From the NCBI GenBank assembly GCA_027064085.1, contig JAMOQH010000088.1, positions 1 to 11,298 of the forward strand: a DNA stretch of 11,298 nucleotides. Direction: 5' to 3'. The translations under genes were made by a program, and so were the position numbers. The notes under the pieces are model-generated. The model worked only from the letters and a program-made list of their open reading frames with translations, was not told where the DNA came from and did not search any database. How positions within the stretch are numbered: position 1 is the stretch's first letter; every line of letters starts with the position of its first letter. This document shows positions 1 through 11,298 of this stretch, one piece after another. This DNA is from a bacterium. Its GTDB lineage: Bacteria; UBP6; JAFGXH01.

Positions 1-229
1 TGAATTAAAGGAAAAGGCTAATCAACAAGATATTGAAAACCTGAATAATACATTTAATTCATTCAAAGAAGATATATTGCAAAAACTCAATGAAATAACT
101 GATGAATTAAAGGAAAAGGCTAATCAACAAGATATTGAAAACCTGAATAATACATTTAATTCATTCAAAGAAGATATATTGCAAAAACTCAATGAAATAA
201 CTGATGAATTAAAGGAAAAGGCTAATCAA
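1..229 (+). repeat. Perfect 102-bp tandem repeat encoding a coiled coil
   Basis: Bases 1-102 and 103-204 are identical, and a third copy continues for 25 bases (205-229) before diverging. The array is cut by the window edge, so the copy number is unknown but above 2.2. The period is 34 codons, so gain or loss of units keeps the frame. Each unit contains hydrophobic residues spaced three or four apart (I, L, F, F, I, L, I, L) among Glu, Lys, Asn and Gln, which is typical of a coiled coil. Since 34 is not a multiple of seven, each unit must contain a break in the heptad register. Complete nucleotide identity, including silent positions, points to recent or ongoing homogenisation. Confidence 0.95.
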
Positions 230-1033
230 ACTCAATTTGATTTGTATCTACGAACGGTTAATTATGCAAAAGACTACATGCAATTGGTTCAACAAAATAT
301 TCAAGGTTTGGTAGATGAAGCCAAGAAAAGACTGCCAAATGAGGTATTTAATAAAAAAGAACTTTTAAAAATCACAAAAGAAGAAAAGCATAAATTTGAT
401 ACTTTTTATGTAGAATTTGAAGATAAATTTAGAGGTTCAAGAGAAGATATTAAACAGAGAGTAAGTGTTTATCTGTCTTATTTAGGAAAACTGCCATTTG
501 AAAAGGAGAAAATAAATATATTAGACATTGGATGTGGTAGGGGAGAATGGCTAGAGTTGTTAAAAGAAAATGGTTATAACGCAAAAGGAATTGATATAAA
601 TAGAATAATGGTTGCAAAATGCAAAGAGTTAGGATTAAATGCTGAAGAAGCAGATGCTATAGAATATTTATCAAAACTTGACGATGAGTCTTTAAATGCA
701 ATAACAGGTTTTCATATTATAGAGCACTTGCCTTTTGAAGCATTGATGAAATTATTTGAAGAAAGTTATAGAGTGTTAAAGAAAGGCGGAATGGTAATTT
801 TTGAAACACCGAATCCTGAGAATATTATTGTAGGGGCTTGCAATTTTTATACTGATCCAACGCATAGGAATCCTCTGGTTCCTGAGAGTGTAAAATTTAT
901 ATTAGAAAATATTGGTTTTGCTGGTGAAATAAAAAGATTACATCCTTTTAATAATATTCATTTTGAAGATTCATTTATAAACCATGTTTTTACAGTAGGC
1001 CAAGATTATGCAATTATAGGATATAAAAAATGA
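2..1033 (+). CDS. Coiled-coil SAM-dependent methyltransferase, 5' end outside window (possible glycan chain terminator)
   Basis: The reading frame is open from the first complete codon at base 2, so the true start lies upstream; 343 residues are visible. An internal TTG at 77 sits inside the repeat and is not a credible start. Visible residues 1 to about 85 are a charged, heptad-like helix made of 34-residue repeats. A linker follows with an FRGSREDIK segment (about residues 143-151), then a class I Rossmann methyltransferase: SAM motif ILDIGCGRGEW at about 173-183, acidic GIDIN further on, FHIIEHLPFEAL, and FETPNPENI. The fold is clear. The target is inferred: next to a multi-domain glycosyltransferase, the likely role is methylation of a growing or finished glycan at the inner membrane, as for the coiled-coil terminator WbdD or the methyltransferase part of WsaE. 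No kinase domain is visible, though one could lie upstream. The TGA overlaps the next ATG (ATGA, 1030-1033), suggesting translational coupling. Confidence 0.85.
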   Translation, partial: ELKEKANQQDIENLNNTFNSFKEDILQKLNEITDELKEKANQQDIENLNNTFNSFKEDILQKLNEITDELKEKANQTQFDLYLRTVNYAKDYMQLVQQNIQGLVDEAKKRLPNEVFNKKELLKITKEEKHKFDTFYVEFEDKFRGSREDIKQRVSVYLSYLGKLPFEKEKINILDIGCGRGEWLELLKENGYNAKGIDINRIMVAKCKELGLNAEEADAIEYLSKLDDESLNAITGFHIIEHLPFEALMKLFEESYRVLKKGGMVIFETPNPENIIVGACNFYTDPTHRNPLVPESVKFILENIGFAGEIKRLHPFNNIHFEDSFINHVFTVGQDYAIIGYKK

Positions 1034-4000
1034 GAATTGTTATAGACTTGCAGGGTGCACAAAGCGAGAGTAGATTTAGAGGAATAGGACGGTTTTCATT
1101 AGATTTTACTCATTCTTTTGTAAAAAAAGCAACTCAAAACCATGAAATATTTCTTTTATTGAATGGTGCTTTAAGCGAGAGCATAGAAGATATTAAAGAA
1201 AGATTTAAAAACATATTACCTGAAGAGAAGATAAAAATATTTGAAATTCCGACACCAACATTTGAAGAAAATACCAATAATAGCCCAAGAGCAAGAATAG
1301 CAGAATTAATTAGAGAATATTATATTACTCAGTTAAATCCAGATTTTGTTTTGATAACGAGTCTTTTTGAAGGGTTTGTGGATAATGCTGTGGTTTCTAT
1401 AGGACAACTAAGTAATATAAGAACAGCAGTAATTTTATATGATTTAATACCATATATAGATCATAAATATTTATCAAATGAAATTTATAAACAATTTTAT
1501 ATGAGAAAAATTGAATATTTAAAAAAAGCAGATGTATTGTTAGCAATTTCTGATTCTTCAAAACAAGAAGCAATTAATTATTTAAAGTTTAATGAATCTA
1601 AAATCCAAACTATATACGGTGCAATCGATACTATATTTCAAAAAGTTGAATTTAATGGTATTGATATAGAAAAAATAAAAAATAAATTTGGCATACAAAA
1701 TAAATTTTTAATGTATACTCCAGGCGGATTTGATTATAGGAAAAATTTTGAAAAACTGATAGATGCTTATAGCTTATTGCCAGAAAATATAAAAAAAGAG
1801 TATCAGCTTGTGATAGTTGGAAAAATTTCTGAAGGTAATAAATTAGAATTAGAAAATTTATCTAAACAATTTGGTTTAGAAAAAAGTAATCTGATTTTAA
1901 CCGGTTATATTTCAGATAATGATTTGATTGCACTTTATAATTTAACTGATTTGTTTATTTTTCCATCTTTACATGAAGGTTTTGGTTTGCCGGTATTGGA
2001 GGCAATTGGTTGTGGAGCAGTAGCCATAGGCTCTAATACAACCAGCATTCCTGAAGTTATAGGGTGTAAAGAAGCTTTGTTTGATCCAAATAGTGCAAAG
2101 TCAATCGCTAAAAAGATTGAAGAAGTCATCCTTGATGATAAGTTAAGAAAAAAGATTTATATACAAGAGCAGGAGAATAAAAAGAAATTTTCTTGGGATA
2201 AGTCTGCTGAAAGGGCTTTAGGCTTTTTGGAAAATCAGATTAAATTTACAAGACAGAATTTCGTGTCATTTGATTCTTTTATATCTAAGGTAGTTGAAAC
2301 GATAGAAAAGACATACTTAGAAAATGATGACGAGATAAAAAAAGTATCTGAAGTTATTTATAAGAATAATAAATTGGTTTCGACTAATATAACCATAAAA
2401 AGTATACGTATAGAAGGCCCGTTTGATAGCAGTTATAGTTTAGCCATTTTAAATAGGGAGATGGCGAAAGCTCTGAATAAATTTTTTCCAGGGAAGGTTC
2501 ATTTGTATTCTATGGAGGGTTATGGAGATTTTGAACCAAATATTGACTTTTTAAATAAAAACAGAATTTTGTACGAAATGTATGAAAATGGTAAGAGAAT
2601 TAAAAACCCGGATGTTGTTTTAAGGAATTTATATCCTCCTAGGGTTTGCGATGCAAAAGGACAAGTTAAATTAATGAATTCTTATGGATGGGAGGAGTCC
2701 GTTTTTCCAGAGTCGTTTGTGGAGGAATTTAATAATTATTTAACAGCTTTACCTGTGATGTCTGAGTATGTTAAAAAAGTTATGATTGATAATGGGGTTT
2801 TTATCCCAATATTTGTAGTAGGAGATGGTGTTGATCATGTTTTAAATGTAAAAGAAAAAGTATATAAGTTAAAAACTAAAAAAATATTTAAGTTCTTACA
2901 TATTTCATCCTGTTTTCCAAGAAAAGGAGTTGATATCCTATTAAAGGCATATTGTAATAGTTTTACTAACCAAGATGATGTGTGCTTGATAATTAAAACT
3001 TTTCCTAATCCTCATAATAATATTGAGGATTTAATTAAGAAATATGCCATAGGCAATAATAGTCCTGAAATAGAATTAATTAATAAGGATTTGGAGGATG
3101 AATATATTATTAGTTTATATAAACAAAGTAATTGTTTGGTTGCTCCTAGTAGAGGGGAGGGATTCGGTTTACCGATGGCGGAAGCTATGGTCTTTGGGTT
3201 GCCAGTTATAACTACTGGATATGGTGGACAGATAGATTTTTGTACTGAAGAAACTGCATGGTTAATAAATTATTCTTTTAAAAAAGCTAAAACTCATATG
3301 AAACTGTTTGACTCGTATTGGGTGGAGCCAGATTGGAAGCATTTAGCTAAAGTAATGCTTAAAGCTTATAAATTACCAGAAAAAAAAGTTGCAATTAAAA
3401 CAAAAAGGGCAAAGCAATTTATTTTGGATAATTATAAATGGGATGATTGTGCAAATAGACTTGTTAATGTTATAAAAGAAATGTTAAATAATAGAACTAC
3501 TTTCAATTGGGATAAAGTTAAAATAGGATGGGTTAGTACTTGGGAAGTGAAATGTGGAATTGCTACTTATTCTAAACATCTTATAGATCACTTTACTAAT
3601 AAGCCAATTATTTTTTCAACCTATAATAGTTTAGATGAAAGAAGTGTAAAATGTTGGAATTTTAGTGATGATTTAAATAATTTGTATTATAAAATATTAG
3701 AGCATAAAATTGAAATAGCAGTAATACAATTTAATTATGGTTTTTTTAATTTTCAATCTTTGAAAGATCTTGTGATTAAATTAAAAAATAAAAACATAAA
3801 AATAATTTTAGAGTTACATTCTACTACAGATCCAGCTCATGAACCATCAAGGAAACTTACTTATCTATCAGAAGTTTTACGCCTTGTTGAGAGAATAATA
3901 GTTCATAATATTGATGATTTGAATAGATTAAAAGAATTAGGATTGATAAATAATATAATGCTTTTTCCTCTTGGGGTGCTTGATTTTGAAATTGATATAA

Positions 4001-4587
4001 AACCTCAGGAAAATCTAATTGCTACTTATGGTTTTTTTTTGCCTCATAAAGGATTGGTTGAGACAATAAAAGCTATAAAAATATTAAAAGATAAAGGGTT
4101 TAATTGTAAATTAAAAATGATTAATGCAAAATATCCTGCTGATATTTCTGATAAACTTATAAAAGAAGCAGAAAAACTAATAAAAACACAAAATTTAGAA
4201 AATGATATTGAATTAATTACTGAGTTTTTAGATGATGAAGTGTGTTTAAAAGAAATTAGTAAAGCAAAGTTAGTAGTCTTTGCCTATCAGGAAACAGGGG
4301 AAAGTGCTAGTGCTGCTGTAAGATATGCATTAGCTGCAAATAGGGATATTTTAGTAACTCCACTTAAGATTTTTGATGATGTTAGAGAATGTGGATTTAC
4401 TCTTAAGGGTTTTACACCAGAAGATATTGCTAGTGGTATAATTGAATATTTTAATAGTAATAAAAAAATGTTAGAAGAGGTTAAAAGATATAGAGAAAAG
4501 TGGTTAAGTGCCCATAGATATTCAAAGCTTGGAAGAAAATATGAAAATGTTTTGAAAAGTATTTGTGTTAATTATAAAAACTTTTAG
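1030..4587 (+). CDS. Three-domain glycosyltransferase (GT-B fold, GT4-like), probable polysaccharide polymerase
   Basis: This 1185-residue protein contains three successive GT-B units. Domain 1 (about 1-400) opens with MRIVIDLQGAQ and has the GT4 EX7E motif at E316/E324 (HEGFGLPVLEA). Domain 2 (about 450-815) opens near IRIEGPFDSSYSL and has EX7E at E710/E718 (GEGFGLPMAEA). Domain 3 (about 828-1185) opens with KIGWVSTWEVKCGIATYSKHL; its equivalent motif, ETGESASAAVRYALAA from 1088, lacks the second Glu. Multi-domain GT4 proteins such as WbdA and WsaE polymerise mannose or rhamnose chains, so a rhamnosyl- or mannosyl-polymerase is the best guess; linkage and sugar cannot be read from sequence. 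A Shine-Dalgarno AGGA at 1018-1021 supports the ATG at 1030, which overlaps the upstream stop. The gene looks very AT-rich and carries a T9 run at 4032-4040 in domain 3. The protein is probably cytoplasmic or membrane-associated, as no signal peptide or membrane helix is evident. Confidence 0.9.
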   Translation: MRIVIDLQGAQSESRFRGIGRFSLDFTHSFVKKATQNHEIFLLLNGALSESIEDIKERFKNILPEEKIKIFEIPTPTFEENTNNSPRARIAELIREYYITQLNPDFVLITSLFEGFVDNAVVSIGQLSNIRTAVILYDLIPYIDHKYLSNEIYKQFYMRKIEYLKKADVLLAISDSSKQEAINYLKFNESKIQTIYGAIDTIFQKVEFNGIDIEKIKNKFGIQNKFLMYTPGGFDYRKNFEKLIDAYSLLPENIKKEYQLVIVGKISEGNKLELENLSKQFGLEKSNLILTGYISDNDLIALYNLTDLFIFPSLHEGFGLPVLEAIGCGAVAIGSNTTSIPEVIGCKEALFDPNSAKSIAKKIEEVILDDKLRKKIYIQEQENKKKFSWDKSAERALGFLENQIKFTRQNFVSFDSFISKVVETIEKTYLENDDEIKKVSEVIYKNNKLVSTNITIKSIRIEGPFDSSYSLAILNREMAKALNKFFPGKVHLYSMEGYGDFEPNIDFLNKNRILYEMYENGKRIKNPDVVLRNLYPPRVCDAKGQVKLMNSYGWEESVFPESFVEEFNNYLTALPVMSEYVKKVMIDNGVFIPIFVVGDGVDHVLNVKEKVYKLKTKKIFKFLHISSCFPRKGVDILLKAYCNSFTNQDDVCLIIKTFPNPHNNIEDLIKKYAIGNNSPEIELINKDLEDEYIISLYKQSNCLVAPSRGEGFGLPMAEAMVFGLPVITTGYGGQIDFCTEETAWLINYSFKKAKTHMKLFDSYWVEPDWKHLAKVMLKAYKLPEKKVAIKTKRAKQFILDNYKWDDCANRLVNVIKEMLNNRTTFNWDKVKIGWVSTWEVKCGIATYSKHLIDHFTNKPIIFSTYNSLDERSVKCWNFSDDLNNLYYKILEHKIEIAVIQFNYGFFNFQSLKDLVIKLKNKNIKIILELHSTTDPAHEPSRKLTYLSEVLRLVERIIVHNIDDLNRLKELGLINNIMLFPLGVLDFEIDIKPQENLIATYGFFLPHKGLVETIKAIKILKDKGFNCKLKMINAKYPADISDKLIKEAEKLIKTQNLENDIELITEFLDDEVCLKEISKAKLVVFAYQETGESASAAVRYALAANRDILVTPLKIFDDVRECGFTLKGFTPEDIASGIIEYFNSNKKMLEEVKRYREKWLSAHRYSKLGRKYENVLKSICVNYKNF

Positions 4588-4776: not shown

Positions 4777-5811
4777 ATGAAAAAAGCGTTTATAACGGGA
4801 ATTACCGGTCAAGACGGTGCATATTTGACCGAATTACTTTTGAAAAAAGGATACCAGGTTTACGGAACGTATAGAAGAACGGCTTCTGTTAATTTTTGGC
4901 GTTTGGAAGAATTGGGTGTCTTGGAACATCAAAATTTACATTTGGTTGAATTTGATTTAATTGACCAATCAAATATAATTCGAATGATTTCCAAAATTCA
5001 ACCTGATGAAATATACAATCTTGCGGCTCAAAGTTTTGTTGGGGTGTCGTTTGAACAACCATTAGCTACTGCTCACATTACAGGACTTGGTGCAGTGCAT
5101 TTATTAGAGGCTGTTAGAATAGTAAACCCTAAGATTAAATTTTATCAAGCTTCAACAAGTGAAATGTTCGGAAAAGTTAGAGAAATTCCACAAACTGAAA
5201 ATACACCTTTTTATCCCAGAAGCCCCTACGGAGTAGCAAAATTATATGCTCATTGGATGACAATTAACTATAGAGAAAGTTATGGAATTTTTGGATGCAA
5301 TGGCATACTTTTTAATCATGAGTCACCTCTGAGAGGTTTGGAATTTGTTACGAGAAAGATAACCGACGGTGTTGCAAAAATAGTATTAGGCAAGTTAGAG
5401 TGTTTGGAACTTGGAAATCTTGATGCAAAAAGGGATTGGGGATATGCAAGGGAGTACGTAGAAGGCATGTATCTAATGTTACAGGCAAATAAGCCTGACA
5501 CTTATGTATTAGCTACTAATAGGACAGAAGCTGTTAGAGATTTTGTAAGAATGGCGTTTAAAGCTGTTGATATTGAATTGGAATTTGAAGGCATTGGCAT
5601 AGATGAAAAAGGTGTAGATAAAAAAACAGGCAAAGTTTTGGTGAAGGTTAATCCTAAATTTTTTAGACCGGCGGAAGTTGATCTTCTTATAGGTAATCCT
5701 GAAAAAGCAAAAAAAGAATTAGGATGGGAACCTAAAACTACTTTGGAAGAATTATGTAAAATGATGGTTGACGCTGATTTGGAAAGAAATAAAAAAGGTT
5801 GGAGCTTTTAA
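4777..5811 (+). CDS. gmd: GDP-mannose 4,6-dehydratase
   Basis: The enzyme converts GDP-D-mannose to GDP-4-keto-6-deoxy-D-mannose in the cytoplasm, the first step to GDP-D-rhamnose, GDP-L-fucose, GDP-perosamine and related sugars. The 344 residues match the usual length of bacterial Gmd. It is an extended SDR protein: NADP-binding GITGQDG at 8-14, TYRR at 31-34, the STSEMFG segment with catalytic T127 and E129, and YGVAK with Y151 and K155. The 22-residue spacing from Glu to Tyr is the same as in human GMD (E157, Y179). [15 protein letters not shown] from 181 and [12 protein letters not shown] near the C-terminus are also characteristic. The gene appears richer in G and C than the preceding glycosyltransferase. 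Its TAA shares one base with the ATG of the following reductase, so the pair is co-translated. Family assignment is secure. Confidence 0.96.
5801..5804 (+). promoter_or_regulatory. Ribosome binding site deciding the rmd start
   Basis: GGAG at 5801-5804 stands six bases before the ATG at 5811. This favours ATG 5811 over the in-frame TTG at 5799, which would add four residues before the nucleotide-binding strand and has no suitably placed binding site. The site lies within the last codons of gmd. Confidence 0.75.
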
Positions 5812-6695
5812 TGAAAAAAGTTCTAATAACAGGAATTGATGGGTTTACGGGATGGCATTTATCGGAATACTTAAAGCAATCTGGATATGAAGTTTATGGA
5901 ACATCCCTAAAAAAAGAGGTTGGGAATGTTTATAAATGTGATGTTAAGGATAAGAGCGATATTAGAAGAGTTTTGCAAAATGTAGAGCCAAATTTTATTA
6001 TACATCTTGCCGCTATTTCTTTTGTCGGATATGATAATTATGAAAACTTTTATAAAGTAAATACATTAGGCACCGTTAATTTGCTTGATAGTTTATTGGA
6101 AGATAGAATATTGCCTAAAAAAATTATCTTGGCAAGCAGTGCAGTTGTTTACGGAAATCAAAATAGTGAAGTTTTAGATGAAAGTATGTGTCCAAGTCCT
6201 AACAATCATTACGGTTGCAGTAAGTTTTCTATGGAGCAATTATCGAAGAACTATTTTGATACATTGCCTATAATTATTACCAGACCGTTTAATTATACCG
6301 GAGTAGGTCAAAAAGATTATTTTTTAATTCCTAAAATCGTTAAACACTTTAAAGAAAAGAAAACAAGCATAGAATTGGGTAATTTGGATGTTATAAGAGA
6401 GTTTAATGATGTAGAGTTTGTTTGTGAATCTTATAAAAGATTACTTGAATGTGAGATTAAATCTAAAATTGTAAATATTTGTTCTGAAAGAGGGATAAAG
6501 CTTCTTGATGTTATAGAGATGATGCAAGAAATTTCAAAATACAAGATAGAAGTGAAAGTTAATCCAAAGTTTGTGAGAAAGAATGAGATAAAAAAGTTGA
6601 TAGGAAGTGGTAAAAGGCTTTTTGAGTTGGTTGGCAATGTTGAGCAAAAAGAATTTCATCTAACTTTGGGAGAAATGTATGAAAATTGTAATTAA
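5811..6695 (+). CDS. rmd: GDP-6-deoxy-D-lyxo-4-hexulose reductase (GDP-D-rhamnose forming)
   Basis: This 294-residue extended SDR protein has GIDGFTG at 8-14 (NAD(P)H binding), an SSAVVYG strand with S109/S110, and YGCSK with Y134 and K138. The ELGNLDVIREFNDVEFV segment resembles the G-LDV-RDF-DV region of RMD-type reductases. The N-terminus lacks the GMVGSA pattern of GDP-L-fucose synthases, so reduction of Gmd's product to GDP-D-rhamnose is the best call. Its one-base overlap with gmd supports that substrate. Other 4-keto reductases or epimerases of the same superfamily cannot be excluded from motifs alone. The last 17 bases overlap the next glycosyltransferase gene, so gmd, rmd and that GT form one translational unit. 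The product is cytoplasmic. Confidence 0.8.
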   Translation: MKKVLITGIDGFTGWHLSEYLKQSGYEVYGTSLKKEVGNVYKCDVKDKSDIRRVLQNVEPNFIIHLAAISFVGYDNYENFYKVNTLGTVNLLDSLLEDRILPKKIILASSAVVYGNQNSEVLDESMCPSPNNHYGCSKFSMEQLSKNYFDTLPIIITRPFNYTGVGQKDYFLIPKIVKHFKEKKTSIELGNLDVIREFNDVEFVCESYKRLLECEIKSKIVNICSERGIKLLDVIEMMQEISKYKIEVKVNPKFVRKNEIKKLIGSGKRLFELVGNVEQKEFHLTLGEMYENCN

Positions 6696-7788
6696 CGCCA
6701 CACCATTACTTTCTTTTGCTACTGGCGTTGGTAGATATACCTATGAAATTTCAAAGTATTTAGAGCAGGATAAACAATTAAAAGTTGATTTTTTTTATGG
6801 ATATTATTCAAAAAAGTTAATAGAACCTGACGAAAAAACTGTATTAAAAAGTTTTAAATCAAGCATAAGGAGTAAATATATAAAAAAAATTCTTAGAAAA
6901 CTTTTGGCAATATTTTCTAAAATACGTATTTCAAAGTATGATGTATACTGGGAGCCTAATTTTATTCCTATTAGACATATAAATACCAACAAAATAATAT
7001 CAAGTATCCATGACTTTTCGTTTATTTTATACAAAGATTTTCACCCAAGGGAAAGGATTGAGTATTTCGATAATTATTTTTTTAAAAATATATACAAAAG
7101 CGATATGATTATATGTTTTTCTGAGTTTACCAAACGAGAAATTATGGAAAGATTAAATTTTGAAGATAACAGAATAAAAGTAATACCTCATGGAGTTAAA
7201 CATGATGTATTTAGAGTTCATAATGACCTATCTTTGGGTTTTGTTTTGCCACAAAAATTCATACTTTGTGTAGGTAGTATAGAACCAAGAAAAAATCTTT
7301 TAGGATTGTTGAAAGCGTACGATAAACTATCTTCAGAAATTAAAAGTGAGTACAAATTGGTTTTAGCAGGTTTTAAAGGATGGAAGAATAAAGATATTAT
7401 GAAAATTATTGATGATAACAAGGAATATGTTATCTATTTAGGATATATCTCTGATTTGGAACTTGCTAAGGTTTATAATTTAGCCTCTTTATTCGTTTTT
7501 CCATCCTTTTACGAAGGATTTGGATTTCCTCCGCTTGAAGCTATGGCTTGTGGCACGCCTGTTATTACTTCAAATGTTTCATCTTTGCCGGAAGTGGGCG
7601 GTGATGCGGTAATATATTGTAATCCATACGATATTGAGGATATAAAAGAAAAAATTGAGATGGTTTTAAATAATAAAGAATTGCAAAGAAAGATGATAGA
7701 AAAAGGCTTAAAAAGAGTAAAACAGTTTACTTGGGAAAAAGCGGCAAAAAAACACTTGGAAGTTTTTAATAAGGTATTAAAAAATTGA
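6679..7788 (+). CDS. GT4 family glycosyltransferase
   Basis: This 369-residue GT-B enzyme has an N-terminal acceptor domain starting [11 protein letters not shown] with a G-VGRYTYE loop, and a C-terminal nucleotide-sugar domain. The latter shows [10 protein letters not shown] around 195-204 and EX7E at E279/E287 ([15 protein letters not shown]), followed by [10 protein letters not shown]. Length and motifs fit retaining mannosyl- or rhamnosyltransferases such as the A-band WbpY/WbpZ group. Use of GDP-D-rhamnose is suggested only by its overlap with rmd (17 bases); donor and linkage remain unproven. GGGAG at 6668-6672, six bases before the ATG, supports the start. A T8 run at 6789-6796 lies near the 5' end. 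Downstream is the inverted-repeat element, so this may be the last gene of the gmd transcript. Confidence 0.88.
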
Positions 7789-7903: not shown

Positions 7904-8536
7904 ATGGATATTTTAATAGATAAAGAGCTTGCAAATATAAAATCACATATTATAGATTATGCTACCATAAAAGCTATACTTGAAAAATATAATTACAAAA
8001 GAATAAACGATAAAATAGAGAATTTAAAACGGCAAGGGATAATCAAAAGTTTAAAAAAAGGCCTATATGTCCACACTTCTATGCAAAATAATATAATCTC
8101 AAAAGAACTTATTGCAAATTCTCTTTTAAGTCCTTCATATATATCATTGGACCATGCTTTGAGTTTTTATGGTTTGATACCGGAAATAGTTGTGGGTGTG
8201 GTTTCTGTTACGACAAAAAGAGCTAAAGCTTTTAAAATAGATTATGGAGTGTTTGAGTATAAGCATATCAAAAAAGAATTATATCCTATTGGGCTAAAGA
8301 TTTATAATGCAAATGAGTATACTTTTTTGATAGCTACAAAAGAAAAAGCACTTTGTGATAAAATATTTTTTACTAAAAATCTTCAAATATCTTCAAAAAA
8401 AAGAATGTTGGAGTTTTTGGTTGTTGATTTGAGGATTGATTTAGATGATATGGAGAGTTTTGATAAAAATATAGTAAATTCATATTATATCAAAAGTCGG
8501 TCAAAAAATAAAAGTCTTGTTGGAGTTATTAAATGA
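7904..8536 (+). CDS. abiEi: AbiEi-type antitoxin / transcriptional regulator (type IV TA)
   Basis: This 210-residue protein has an N-terminal winged helix-turn-helix (about 15-57, with LKRQGIIKSLKKGLYV forming the recognition helix and wing). The C-terminal AbiEi domain shows SYISLDHALSFYGLIPE at 78-94 and ATKEKALCDKIF at 144-155. Proteins of this family repress their own promoter and counteract the AbiEii nucleotidyltransferase toxin. The length is normal and nothing is broken. AGAGG at 7895-7899 precedes the ATG closely. Its TGA overlaps the start of the toxin gene (ATGA), the usual abiEi-abiEii arrangement, but only 19 toxin codons remain, so this is an orphan antitoxin. It may still act as a DNA-binding regulator on sites such as the inverted repeat just upstream; that is inference. 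Confidence 0.85.
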   Translation: MDILIDKELANIKSHIIDYATIKAILEKYNYKRINDKIENLKRQGIIKSLKKGLYVHTSMQNNIISKELIANSLLSPSYISLDHALSFYGLIPEIVVGVVSVTTKRAKAFKIDYGVFEYKHIKKELYPIGLKIYNANEYTFLIATKEKALCDKIFFTKNLQISSKKRMLEFLVVDLRIDLDDMESFDKNIVNSYYIKSRSKNKSLVGVIK

Positions 8537-8602: not shown

Positions 8603-9715
8603 ATGAATAAAAAAACGGCAATAATTCACGACTGGCTTGTAACCAATGCGGGAGCTGAAAAAGTTTTAAAAGAAATTGTTGATATTTTTCCTGATGCGGA
8701 TATATTCAGTTTGGTTGATTTTTTAAATGATAAAGATAGGTTGGAGATTTTAAAAGGCAAAAATGCCAAAACCTCTTTTATTCAAAAACTTCCCTTTTCA
8801 AGAAAATATTTTAGAAATTATCTGCCGTTTTTTCCCAAAGCAATAGAAAGTTTTGATTTACATGGATATGATTTGATTGTGAGCTCATCTTGGGCTGTTG
8901 CAAAAGGGATTAAGAAGAACAAAAATCAATTACATATTTCCTATTGTCATACTCCCATTAGATATGCTTGGGATTTATATGGTGAATATATTTCTAATTT
9001 AAAACAACCTAAAAAATATATTGTTGAGTGGACTTTAAAATATATAAGAAGATGGGATATAAAAACGCTAAATAGGGTAGACTGTTTTATTGCAAACTCT
9101 AAATTTGTCCAAGAAAGAATAAAAAGGATTTACCATAAAGACGCTTGCGTTATTTATCCGCCTGTCGATGTAGATAGATTTGAGTTGTATACAAAAAAAG
9201 AAAATTTTTACCTTACTGCTTCAAGACTGGTGCCTTACAAAAAGATAGATTTGATAGTTGAAGCATTCTCTAAAATGTCGGATAAAAAGCTTGTTGTTAT
9301 TGGAGATGGGACAGATTTTAATACAATAAAAAAGAAAGCAGGTAAAAATATTGAGATTTTAGGTTATCAGCCATTTGAGACTTTAAAAGATTATATGCAA
9401 AGGGCAAAAGCTTTTGTTTTTGCTGCTGAAGAGGATTTTGGGATAGTCCCTGTTGAAGCACAAGCATGCGGGACACCTGTTATTGCTTTTGGTAAAGGCG
9501 GAGCAACAGAAACTGTTGTAAACTGGGAAACCGGGTTATTTTTTAAAGAACAGACAATTGAAAGTTTAACAGATGCTGTTAAAAAGTTTGAAAAAATTGA
9601 AGAAAAATTTGATTATGTTAAAATAAGAAAAAATGCTGAAAGGTTTGGTAAAAGTAGGTTTAAGCATGAGTTTAAAAAGTTTGTTGATAATAAAATAGAA
9701 AAATTCTTTATATGA
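8603..9715 (+). CDS. WbaZ-like GT4 glycosyltransferase
   Basis: The 370-residue GT-B enzyme opens with AIIHDWLVTNAGAEKVL, the hallmark of the WbaZ-like GT4 subfamily, followed by FPDADIFSLV, SSSWAVAKG and ISYCHTPIRYAWDLY (about 112-126). The donor domain has TASRLVPYKKID and EX7E at E277/E285 (EDFGIVPVEAQACG). Relatives transfer mannose or similar sugars during O-antigen assembly, often early in the chain and often encoded close to the initiating sugar-phosphate transferase, which also follows here. The specific donor is unknown. No Shine-Dalgarno sequence precedes the ATG; the stop of the toxin remnant is ten bases upstream, so translation may depend on coupling to it. The TGA overlaps the start of the MNT gene (ATGA, 9712-9715). 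Confidence 0.88.
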   Translation: MNKKTAIIHDWLVTNAGAEKVLKEIVDIFPDADIFSLVDFLNDKDRLEILKGKNAKTSFIQKLPFSRKYFRNYLPFFPKAIESFDLHGYDLIVSSSWAVAKGIKKNKNQLHISYCHTPIRYAWDLYGEYISNLKQPKKYIVEWTLKYIRRWDIKTLNRVDCFIANSKFVQERIKRIYHKDACVIYPPVDVDRFELYTKKENFYLTASRLVPYKKIDLIVEAFSKMSDKKLVVIGDGTDFNTIKKKAGKNIEILGYQPFETLKDYMQRAKAFVFAAEEDFGIVPVEAQACGTPVIAFGKGGATETVVNWETGLFFKEQTIESLTDAVKKFEKIEEKFDYVKIRKNAERFGKSRFKHEFKKFVDNKIEKFFI

Positions 9716-10008
9716 CGAATATACAATATATTAAAACATCTGAAGATTTAAAGAATTTTCTAAAAGAATATTTTAAAGATAGTGATGTTGAAGTATATCT
9801 GTTTGGTTCAAGGGCAAGAAGAGATAACAGTATTTTTTCAGATTTTGATATAGGTATTGTAACACATGAAGATATTTCAACAAAGCTTACACTTTTGAAA
9901 GAATCATTGGAAAAAAGTAATTTTCCCTATAAAGTAGATATTGTGGATTTGTCTTTAGACGAAAGATTGTATAAGATTGTATTGAAAGAGGGTATTAAAT
10001 GGCTTTAA
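9712..10008 (+). CDS. mntA: MntA-like minimal nucleotidyltransferase antitoxin (type VII TA)
   Basis: This 98-residue protein is a minimal DNA-polymerase-beta-type nucleotidyltransferase. It has the exact GSX10DXD signature, G32-S33 then D44 and D46 (GSRARRDNSIFSDFDIG), plus a third acidic residue D76 in KVDIVDL. All three catalytic carboxylates are present. In characterised MntA-HepT pairs this enzyme transfers AMP to a tyrosine of the HEPN toxin and so inactivates it. The next gene encodes such a HEPN protein and overlaps it by ten bases. No Shine-Dalgarno is evident; the start lies inside the ATGA overlap with the WbaZ-like gene, so expression appears tied to glycan-operon translation. HI0073 of Haemophilus is the same kind of protein. 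Confidence 0.88.
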   Translation: MTNIQYIKTSEDLKNFLKEYFKDSDVEVYLFGSRARRDNSIFSDFDIGIVTHEDISTKLTLLKESLEKSNFPYKVDIVDLSLDERLYKIVLKEGIKWL

Positions 10009-10418
10009 AAAATGCTTTACATGATTTTGATAGATCTTTACATAGACTGAAGGAGGCTTATTTAAAGGCAAAAAAATCAAATGATGATAATTATAATTTC
10101 TTTAGGGATAGCGCTATTCAACGATTTGAGTTTACGGTAGAGATTTTTTGGAAAAGTATCAAATATTATTTAAAAGAAATAGAAGGTATTGAATGTAGAA
10201 GCCCAAAATCGTGTATAAGAGAATTTTTTATTACGGGTGGGTTGGATAGTGAAGAGGGTGTGGTCTTGCTTCTTGAGATGATTGACGATAGAAATATGAC
10301 ATCCCACACATATAAAGAAGAGATTGCAAAAATGATATTTTCAAAAATAGAGATATATATCGATAGACTCAACGAAATTTTGGTTAAATTTAAAAGTGTA
10401 GTAAATATAACAATATAA
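9999..10418 (+). CDS. hepT: HepT-like HEPN toxin (HI0074 family, nucleotidyltransferase partner)
   Basis: This 139-residue all-helical protein resembles the HI0074 'nucleotidyltransferase substrate binding' family, now seen as HEPN RNase toxins. RDSAIQRFEFTVEIFWKSIKYYL (about 36-58) is the typical central helix. The active-site motif RX4HXY is complete: R98, H103 and Y105 in DDRNMTSHTY. In the family, R and H form the RNase site and the Tyr is the residue AMPylated by MntA, so toxin and its control site both look functional. GAGG at 9988-9991 precedes the ATG by seven bases, inside mntA, and the reading frames overlap by ten bases. This order and overlap are standard for MNT-HEPN modules. Confidence 0.87.
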   Translation: MALKNALHDFDRSLHRLKEAYLKAKKSNDDNYNFFRDSAIQRFEFTVEIFWKSIKYYLKEIEGIECRSPKSCIREFFITGGLDSEEGVVLLLEMIDDRNMTSHTYKEEIAKMIFSKIEIYIDRLNEILVKFKSVVNITI

Positions 10419-10432
10419 ATTAGGATAGTGCT

Positions 10433-11298
10433 GTGTCAAGAATTAAAGAAGATTTAACAAAAATACTTTTGTTGTTATTCGATTTTTTTATAAGTAATAT
10501 AATTTTGTTGCTTTCAATATTTATAAAAGGTGAATTTGGGAAATATGGTTTATTGTTGATAAAACCCAATGAAGGCGACTATTTTTTAAAAATTTGGTGG
10601 ATTTCAATATTTTTAGTGTTGATATTTTTTGTTAAAGGGCTGTATTCAAAGAGATTGCCTTTTTGGAATGAAACAAAAGAGATTGTTTCGTCTGTTTTTT
10701 ATACTGTTTTAATATCACTTTCTATCATATATTTACAAAAGTTATGGAATTTTCCGCGCTCTATCTTTATTCTGTATTTTGTCCTATCTATAGTTGTTAT
10801 CCCATTTTTAAGGCATTGGTTTAAGCTGTTTTTGTTAAAGATAGGTATATATAAAAGAAATATGATTGTGGTAGGTGCTGGAGCATCGGGCAGGGCGGCT
10901 GTTTATGGTATTTTAAAACAAAAAGAGTTTGGTATGAATGTTGTGGGTTTTGTGGATGATTTTAAAAATAAAGATGTGATAATAGGAAATCATACGTTTA
11001 AAATTTTAGGTAAAATAGAGGACTTGGAGAGTTTATTAAATAAATTTAATGTCGATACCGTAATGATAGCAATACCGTCATTAGGTTCTGAAAAAATAGC
11101 GAATCTTGCATCAAGAGTTCAGTTGTTGGTTAGAAGGTTATATATTATTCCGGAACTCAAGGGTGTTGCAATATCAAATACCCAAATCTATACGCTGTTT
11201 GATGAGCAGATGTTTTTATTGAGAATAAACAATAATTTGCAATACCTAAAAAACCGTATATTGAAAAGGATTTTTGATATTATATTTTCTGTTTTGTT
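10433..11298 (+). CDS. WbaP-like polyprenyl-phosphate sugar-1-phosphate transferase, 3' end outside window
   Basis: The frame opens at GTG 10433, with AGGA at 10422-10425 and an in-frame TAG at 10421 limiting any earlier start, and runs off the window after 288 codons. Four hydrophobic segments are visible at about 11-31, 52-71, 84-101 and 110-127, followed by a Rossmann-like domain with MIVVGAGASGR (144-154) and VGFVDD (171-176). The visible part ends at LKNRILKRIFDIIFSVL, which in WbaP-type enzymes is the helix leading into the phosphoglycosyltransferase catalytic domain; that domain lies beyond the edge. Such inner-membrane enzymes move a sugar phosphate (often Gal-1-P or Glc-1-P) to undecaprenyl phosphate to begin glycan synthesis. 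The sugar cannot be told. A gap of 14 bases after hepT suggests the same transcript. Confidence 0.87.
   Translation, partial: MSRIKEDLTKILLLLFDFFISNIILLLSIFIKGEFGKYGLLLIKPNEGDYFLKIWWISIFLVLIFFVKGLYSKRLPFWNETKEIVSSVFYTVLISLSIIYLQKLWNFPRSIFILYFVLSIVVIPFLRHWFKLFLLKIGIYKRNMIVVGAGASGRAAVYGILKQKEFGMNVVGFVDDFKNKDVIIGNHTFKILGKIEDLESLLNKFNVDTVMIAIPSLGSEKIANLASRVQLLVRRLYIIPELKGVAISNTQIYTLFDEQMFLLRINNNLQYLKNRILKRIFDIIFSVL

Follow-up and report, generated by a model that had tools for sequence, protein, structure and literature searches.

The protein encoded at the start of the contig examined here is, on balance, probably a relative of the terminator WbdD with reversed domain order, which would cap a glycan assembled by an ABC-transporter-dependent pathway and whose coil would reach outwards in steps set by tandem units. 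The first-pass idea of an adjustable ruler is partly borne out. The textbook ruler of glycan length is the coil of WbdD, and it is known from engineered coils with insertions or truncations. The coiled-coil terminator itself is already known; what is new is the reversed domain order together with a coil built of tandem units. The window, that is, the whole stretch of 11,298 nt that was analyzed, is the entire contig C88 of a genome bin (Table 1).

Table 1. Position and assignment of the features found in the window.
Feature	Coordinates	Strand	Remarks
Perfect tandem array of a 102-bp (34-codon) unit, 2.25 copies or more	1..229	+	5' side cut by contig start
5'-truncated terminator gene	2..1033	+	Coil residues 1 to ~112, methyltransferase ~133-343
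SAM-dependent methyltransferase domain	398..1030	+	46.7% identical to O8 WbdD methyltransferase; best structure 3dli
1185-aa glycosyltransferase, three GT1-type stretches, candidate WbdA-like polymerase	1030..4587	+	
gmd, GDP-mannose 4,6-dehydratase	4777..5811	+	NCBIfam equivalog above cut-off
SDR, probably GDP-4-keto-6-deoxymannose reductase Rmd (GDP-D-rhamnose supply)	5799..6695	+	
GT4-type glycosyltransferase	6679..7788	+	
GT4-type glycosyltransferase	8603..9715	+	

The terminator gene and its neighbors

Coil residues 2-110 are almost wholly helical in the AlphaFold2 model, with modest confidence (pLDDT ~60-70), and the hydrophobic residues are spaced every 3.74-3.78 residues, a periodicity that none of 2000 shuffles reached in strength. 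The 34-residue unit is a non-integer number of heptads. A helical coil adjoining the catalytic domain, as in WbdD-type terminators, is predicted to be present, and the coil is probably oligomeric. A helix is thus predicted for the coil proposed in the first-pass annotation, at this level of confidence and for a protein that is truncated on its 5' side. The accompanying length of ~5 nm for each unit of 34 residues is correct given a continuous helix.

The methyltransferase domain was modeled by AlphaFold2 with high confidence. Among solved structures it matches 3dli best (Z 25.6, 42% identity; rmsd of 1.8 across 201 residues). Residues 133-342 are 46.7% identical to the methyltransferase of E. 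coli O8-type loci, and the matching E. coli O8 gene sits between wzt and the polymerase gene, which is the position of WbdD. The protein was annotated as ending in a methyltransferase preceded by the coil, the opposite of WbdD. Both points agree with the domain layout and with the homology to the O8 WbdD domain. The order found in WbdD, namely methyltransferase, coil and C-terminal membrane anchor, is not that of the window protein. As the coil comes before the methyltransferase and there is no C-terminal extension, the protein was filed as a reversed-order relative and not as WbdD.

The annotated multi-domain glycosyltransferase was likewise found directly downstream, with three GT stretches. 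It is 44% identical over 946 residues to the multi-domain glycosyltransferase of the relative L042, and by sequence it is a candidate multi-domain polymerase. The SDR was read as Rmd because it adjoins gmd. Together, gmd and the probable rmd suggest a glycan containing D-rhamnose, and the surface glycan is probably a D-rhamnose polymer. An AbiEi-like antitoxin homologue (7904-8536; NCBIfam NF047376, below cut-off) lies amid the sugar genes, with no adjoining AbiEii toxin in the window. Positions 9999-10418 encode a HI0074-type nucleotidyltransferase substrate-binding protein. The usual partner of such proteins is an MNT-type nucleotidyltransferase, and none is listed in the window. A polyprenyl glycosylphosphotransferase, the initiating transferase, occupies 10433-11296 and is cut by the contig end.

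Neither wzm nor wzt is present in the window, which is cut inside the terminator gene. In the genome bin the best Wzt match reaches 31%, which is not close, nothing matches PF01061 above cut-off, and no cognate Wzm was found. Either the upstream contig is absent from the bin or C88 is foreign to it. Foreign origin was considered; the composition of C88 fits the bin (GC 29% vs 25-31.5%, compatible tetranucleotide distance), yet both explanations are retained.

Relatives and coil-length variation

The best relatives of the window protein come from Campylobacterota (55-64%). Where full-length, they consist of DUF4214, hydrophobic helices, coil and methyltransferase, in this order. DUF4214 is present in 10 of 19 aligned members, and the hydrophobic stretch ahead of the coil reaches a Kyte-Doolittle 19-residue maximum of 1.3-2.0 in the Campylobacterota relatives. 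In L040 and L042 the gene order is manC-wzm-wzt-terminator-multiGT, and Wzt carries a Wzt_C domain. This operon matches the O8 order wzm-wzt-wbdD-wbdA with the terminator's own domains reversed, in keeping with the first-pass analogy to WbdD. Wzm- or Wzt-like genes occur at 43 of 65 loci with an N-terminal coil and at 14 of 15 with a C-terminal one. In the methyltransferase tree, one change between the two domain orders suffices (support 95/84), and the window protein falls in a nine-member Campylobacterota-type clade with N-terminal coils (support 100/100). The phage collection contained no relative. In L121, plasmid p16187MP2 of Campylobacter sp. RM16187, an ABC-transporter glycan cluster includes a 1111-aa protein in which a methyltransferase is joined to glycosyltransferase modules.

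Tandem arrays recur in terminator coils across the family, whether the coil is N- or C-terminal. With TRF, repeats of period at least 15 were counted in 35 of 101 terminator genes and in 10 of 407 neighboring ORFs (Fisher odds ratio 21, p 8e-19), in a set that includes some near-duplicate genomes and with non-coil neighbors as controls, so that the excess may in part reflect a trait of coiled coils in general. The array lies on the coil side, N- or C-terminal, in 34 of the 35 terminators, and its period is divisible by 3 in 34 of 35. An array is present in eight of the nine clade members. The unit measures 102 bp, 60 bp, 54 bp (in two members), 33 bp (in three) or 27 bp, and differs between most lineages. 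Coil length ranges from ~48 to 115 residues in this clade, and the methyltransferase domain from 206 to 234 residues family-wide.

Gain and loss of units across lineages was shown. Outside the coil, the alignment of L041 with L043 is gap-free, with ~95% nucleotide identity in the flanks, and one coil is 31 residues shorter; collapse during assembly is unlikely since the units have diverged. This pair, along with an O8 wbdD duplication allele described below, agrees with the annotated expectation that unit number varies among related proteins. A difference of 22 residues between L048 and L049 was set aside as possibly due to start-codon choice. Near-perfect short coil arrays occur in L133 (27 bp, 5.9 copies), L135 (33 bp, 4.1 copies), L083 (21 bp, 6.3 copies) and L140 (21 bp, 3.2 copies); these are well suited to strain-to-strain comparison of unit number.

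The E. coli ruler is close to constant in length: the sampled chromosomal O8 and O9a alleles show no variation in it, and a change of units does occur but is uncommon. The O8 wbdD gene measures 1278 bp in 59 of 59 full-length E. coli rows sampled, and the O9/O9a gene 2127 bp in 48 of 48 (91.7-100% identity); O9a wbdD has no tandem DNA array comparable to that of the window. The O8 wbdD of plasmid pECO-5e72 (E. coli ECONIH4) contains an exact 156-bp, 52-codon duplication in the coil (1434 vs 1278 bp), and the identical allele is found on a Serratia marcescens IncX5 plasmid. The carriers are two IncX5 plasmids, NZ_CP026400 and NZ_CP020505. When the duplication junction was searched for in O8 alleles, the place counts left room for no more than one additional genome with an extra place. 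The characterized rulers of E. coli are constant in length apart from the one plasmid allele, and so give no sign of frequent heritable switching. In L159 (E. coli NDM4), O9-type wbdA and wbdC are retained, and wzm, wzt and most of wbdD have been lost beside IS1 and rfbBADC. Only the last 8-13% of wbdD remains in several genomes of the O9/O9a sample.

Coil reach and alternative explanations

A stepped ruler could operate as follows. The N-terminal DUF4214 and hydrophobic helices seen in the relatives would hold the terminator to the membrane, close to the polymerase. From this anchor a helical and presumably oligomeric coil would project with the methyltransferase at its far end, and only chains reaching the methyltransferase would receive the methyl cap that ends their growth. 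Unequal recombination or slippage would add or remove whole units; as the coil is made of in-frame units, such events would leave the reading frame and the hydrophobic core stripe intact. The reach would shift by ~5 nm per 34-codon unit, and glycan length might follow. Seen in the relatives, gain and loss of whole spacer units in an otherwise unchanged protein suggests stepwise retuning of sugar-chain length. As natural coil-length variants exist, tuning of glycan length by unit number is directly testable.

The coil might instead be a mere oligomerization or docking rod for the polymerase, in which repeats are tolerated and unit number is neutral for glycan length. Coils are of low complexity and can accommodate in-frame repeats, unit sequences vary among most clade members, and the control for repeat enrichment was unmatched for coils. 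Against this, the coil keeps one length in each of the E. coli O8 and O9a genome samples, a sign that its length is important, and insertions and truncations in the O9a coil alter chain length (PMC5082667). A neutral rod is considered unlikely, albeit the most serious competitor of the stepped ruler.

It is distinctly improbable that the methyltransferase modifies internal residues or a precursor rather than terminating the chain, in which case no ruler would be needed. The nearest solved structure, 3dli, is an uncharacterized methyltransferase, but the domain is 47% identical to the O8 terminator domain and the operon of the relatives includes a Wzt with a Wzt_C domain.

The array was also considered in the light of the assembly. 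It is the only one detected by TRF in the window (1-229, period 102, 2.2 copies, 100% match). Positions 1-127 are identical to 103-229, and identity drops to 9/30 just beyond. The repeat is in frame, and the frame is open from position 2. Three contig pairs of the assembly share end overlaps of exactly 127 bases. No other length of end-to-end overlap was found among the fetched contigs of the bin, those shorter than ~3 kb being excluded as they are apparently masked and give meaningless self-overlaps. These overlaps indicate a de Bruijn assembly with k=127, so that the 229 bp of the array (127 + 102) are best read as one vertex of k=127 and one 102-bp loop (the loop plus the exit edge). The annotated figure of at least 2.2 perfect copies thus stands as to frame and to 100% identity over 229 bp, and the value 2.2 is a lower bound set by the assembler, the real array comprising 2.25 perfect copies or more. 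The array sits at the contig start and its length is exactly 127 + 102, yet an assembly artefact is highly implausible, as the loop in the graph requires reads that run through 229 bp or more of perfect periodicity, the reading frame stays open, relatives carry assembled and diverged arrays at the equivalent position, and both IncX5 plasmids are complete records with the identical duplication.

C88 begins within the array and is the only contig of the bin with the 102-bp repeat, so the window lacks the N-terminal end of the protein. The bin did not yield the upstream half, and the N-terminal region of the relatives had no match there. Another contig of the bin (L228, G000:C49) ends in an array of 135-bp period within a cysteine-rich repeat protein, with the identical 127-base assembler signature.

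Comparison with known terminators

Coiled-coil terminators are a hallmark of the ABC-transporter-dependent pathway of glycan assembly (PMC11231755). In the characterized systems, the coil spaces the terminating enzyme from the polymerase and a changed length shifts glycan length (PMC5082667, PMC11231755). In O9a, coil length sets the modal O-antigen length, and chain length shifts when the coil carries insertions or is truncated (PMC5082667). Literature searches linking tandem repeats with chain length in coiled-coil terminators returned nothing relevant. The tandem units, the near-identical relatives whose only length difference lies in the coil and the 52-codon O8 duplication are natural equivalents of the engineered coil changes. 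As a tentative proposal, gain and loss of coil units, in both domain orders and in many phyla, may be a general evolutionary dial for glycan length, the reversed N-anchored form being the most variable and its copy number strain-dependent.

In the described forms the terminator sits N-terminally, where the coil has its distal end (PMC5082667, PMC11231755). The family of the window protein probably keeps the logic of the ruler, with the anchor at the N-terminus and the terminator at the C-terminus, and its reversed order suggests that the spacer logic may be independent of domain order. The nearest solved structure, 3dli, is that of an Archaeoglobus fulgidus protein of which only the methyltransferase domain was solved; its residue numbering, 253-473, hints at an N-terminal extension similar to that of the window family.

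The coil of K. pneumoniae O12 WbbB, O4 ORF7 and O7 ORF6 likewise lies between a terminator domain and polymerase modules (PMC11231755), but these proteins have other catalytic domains, and the terminator is N-terminal in the described forms. The window protein shares with the WbdD ruler of E. coli O9a and K. pneumoniae O3 a predicted catalytic tip on a coil spacer, whereas O9a WbdD has a kinase domain and a C-terminal anchor, and is of constant length in the sampled genomes. A close counterpart is E. coli O8 WbdD, a methyltransferase-only terminator, with a homologous methyltransferase (46.7%), a long coil and an adjacent multi-domain glycosyltransferase; in O8 WbdD the methyltransferase precedes the coil, whereas the window protein has the two in the opposite order.
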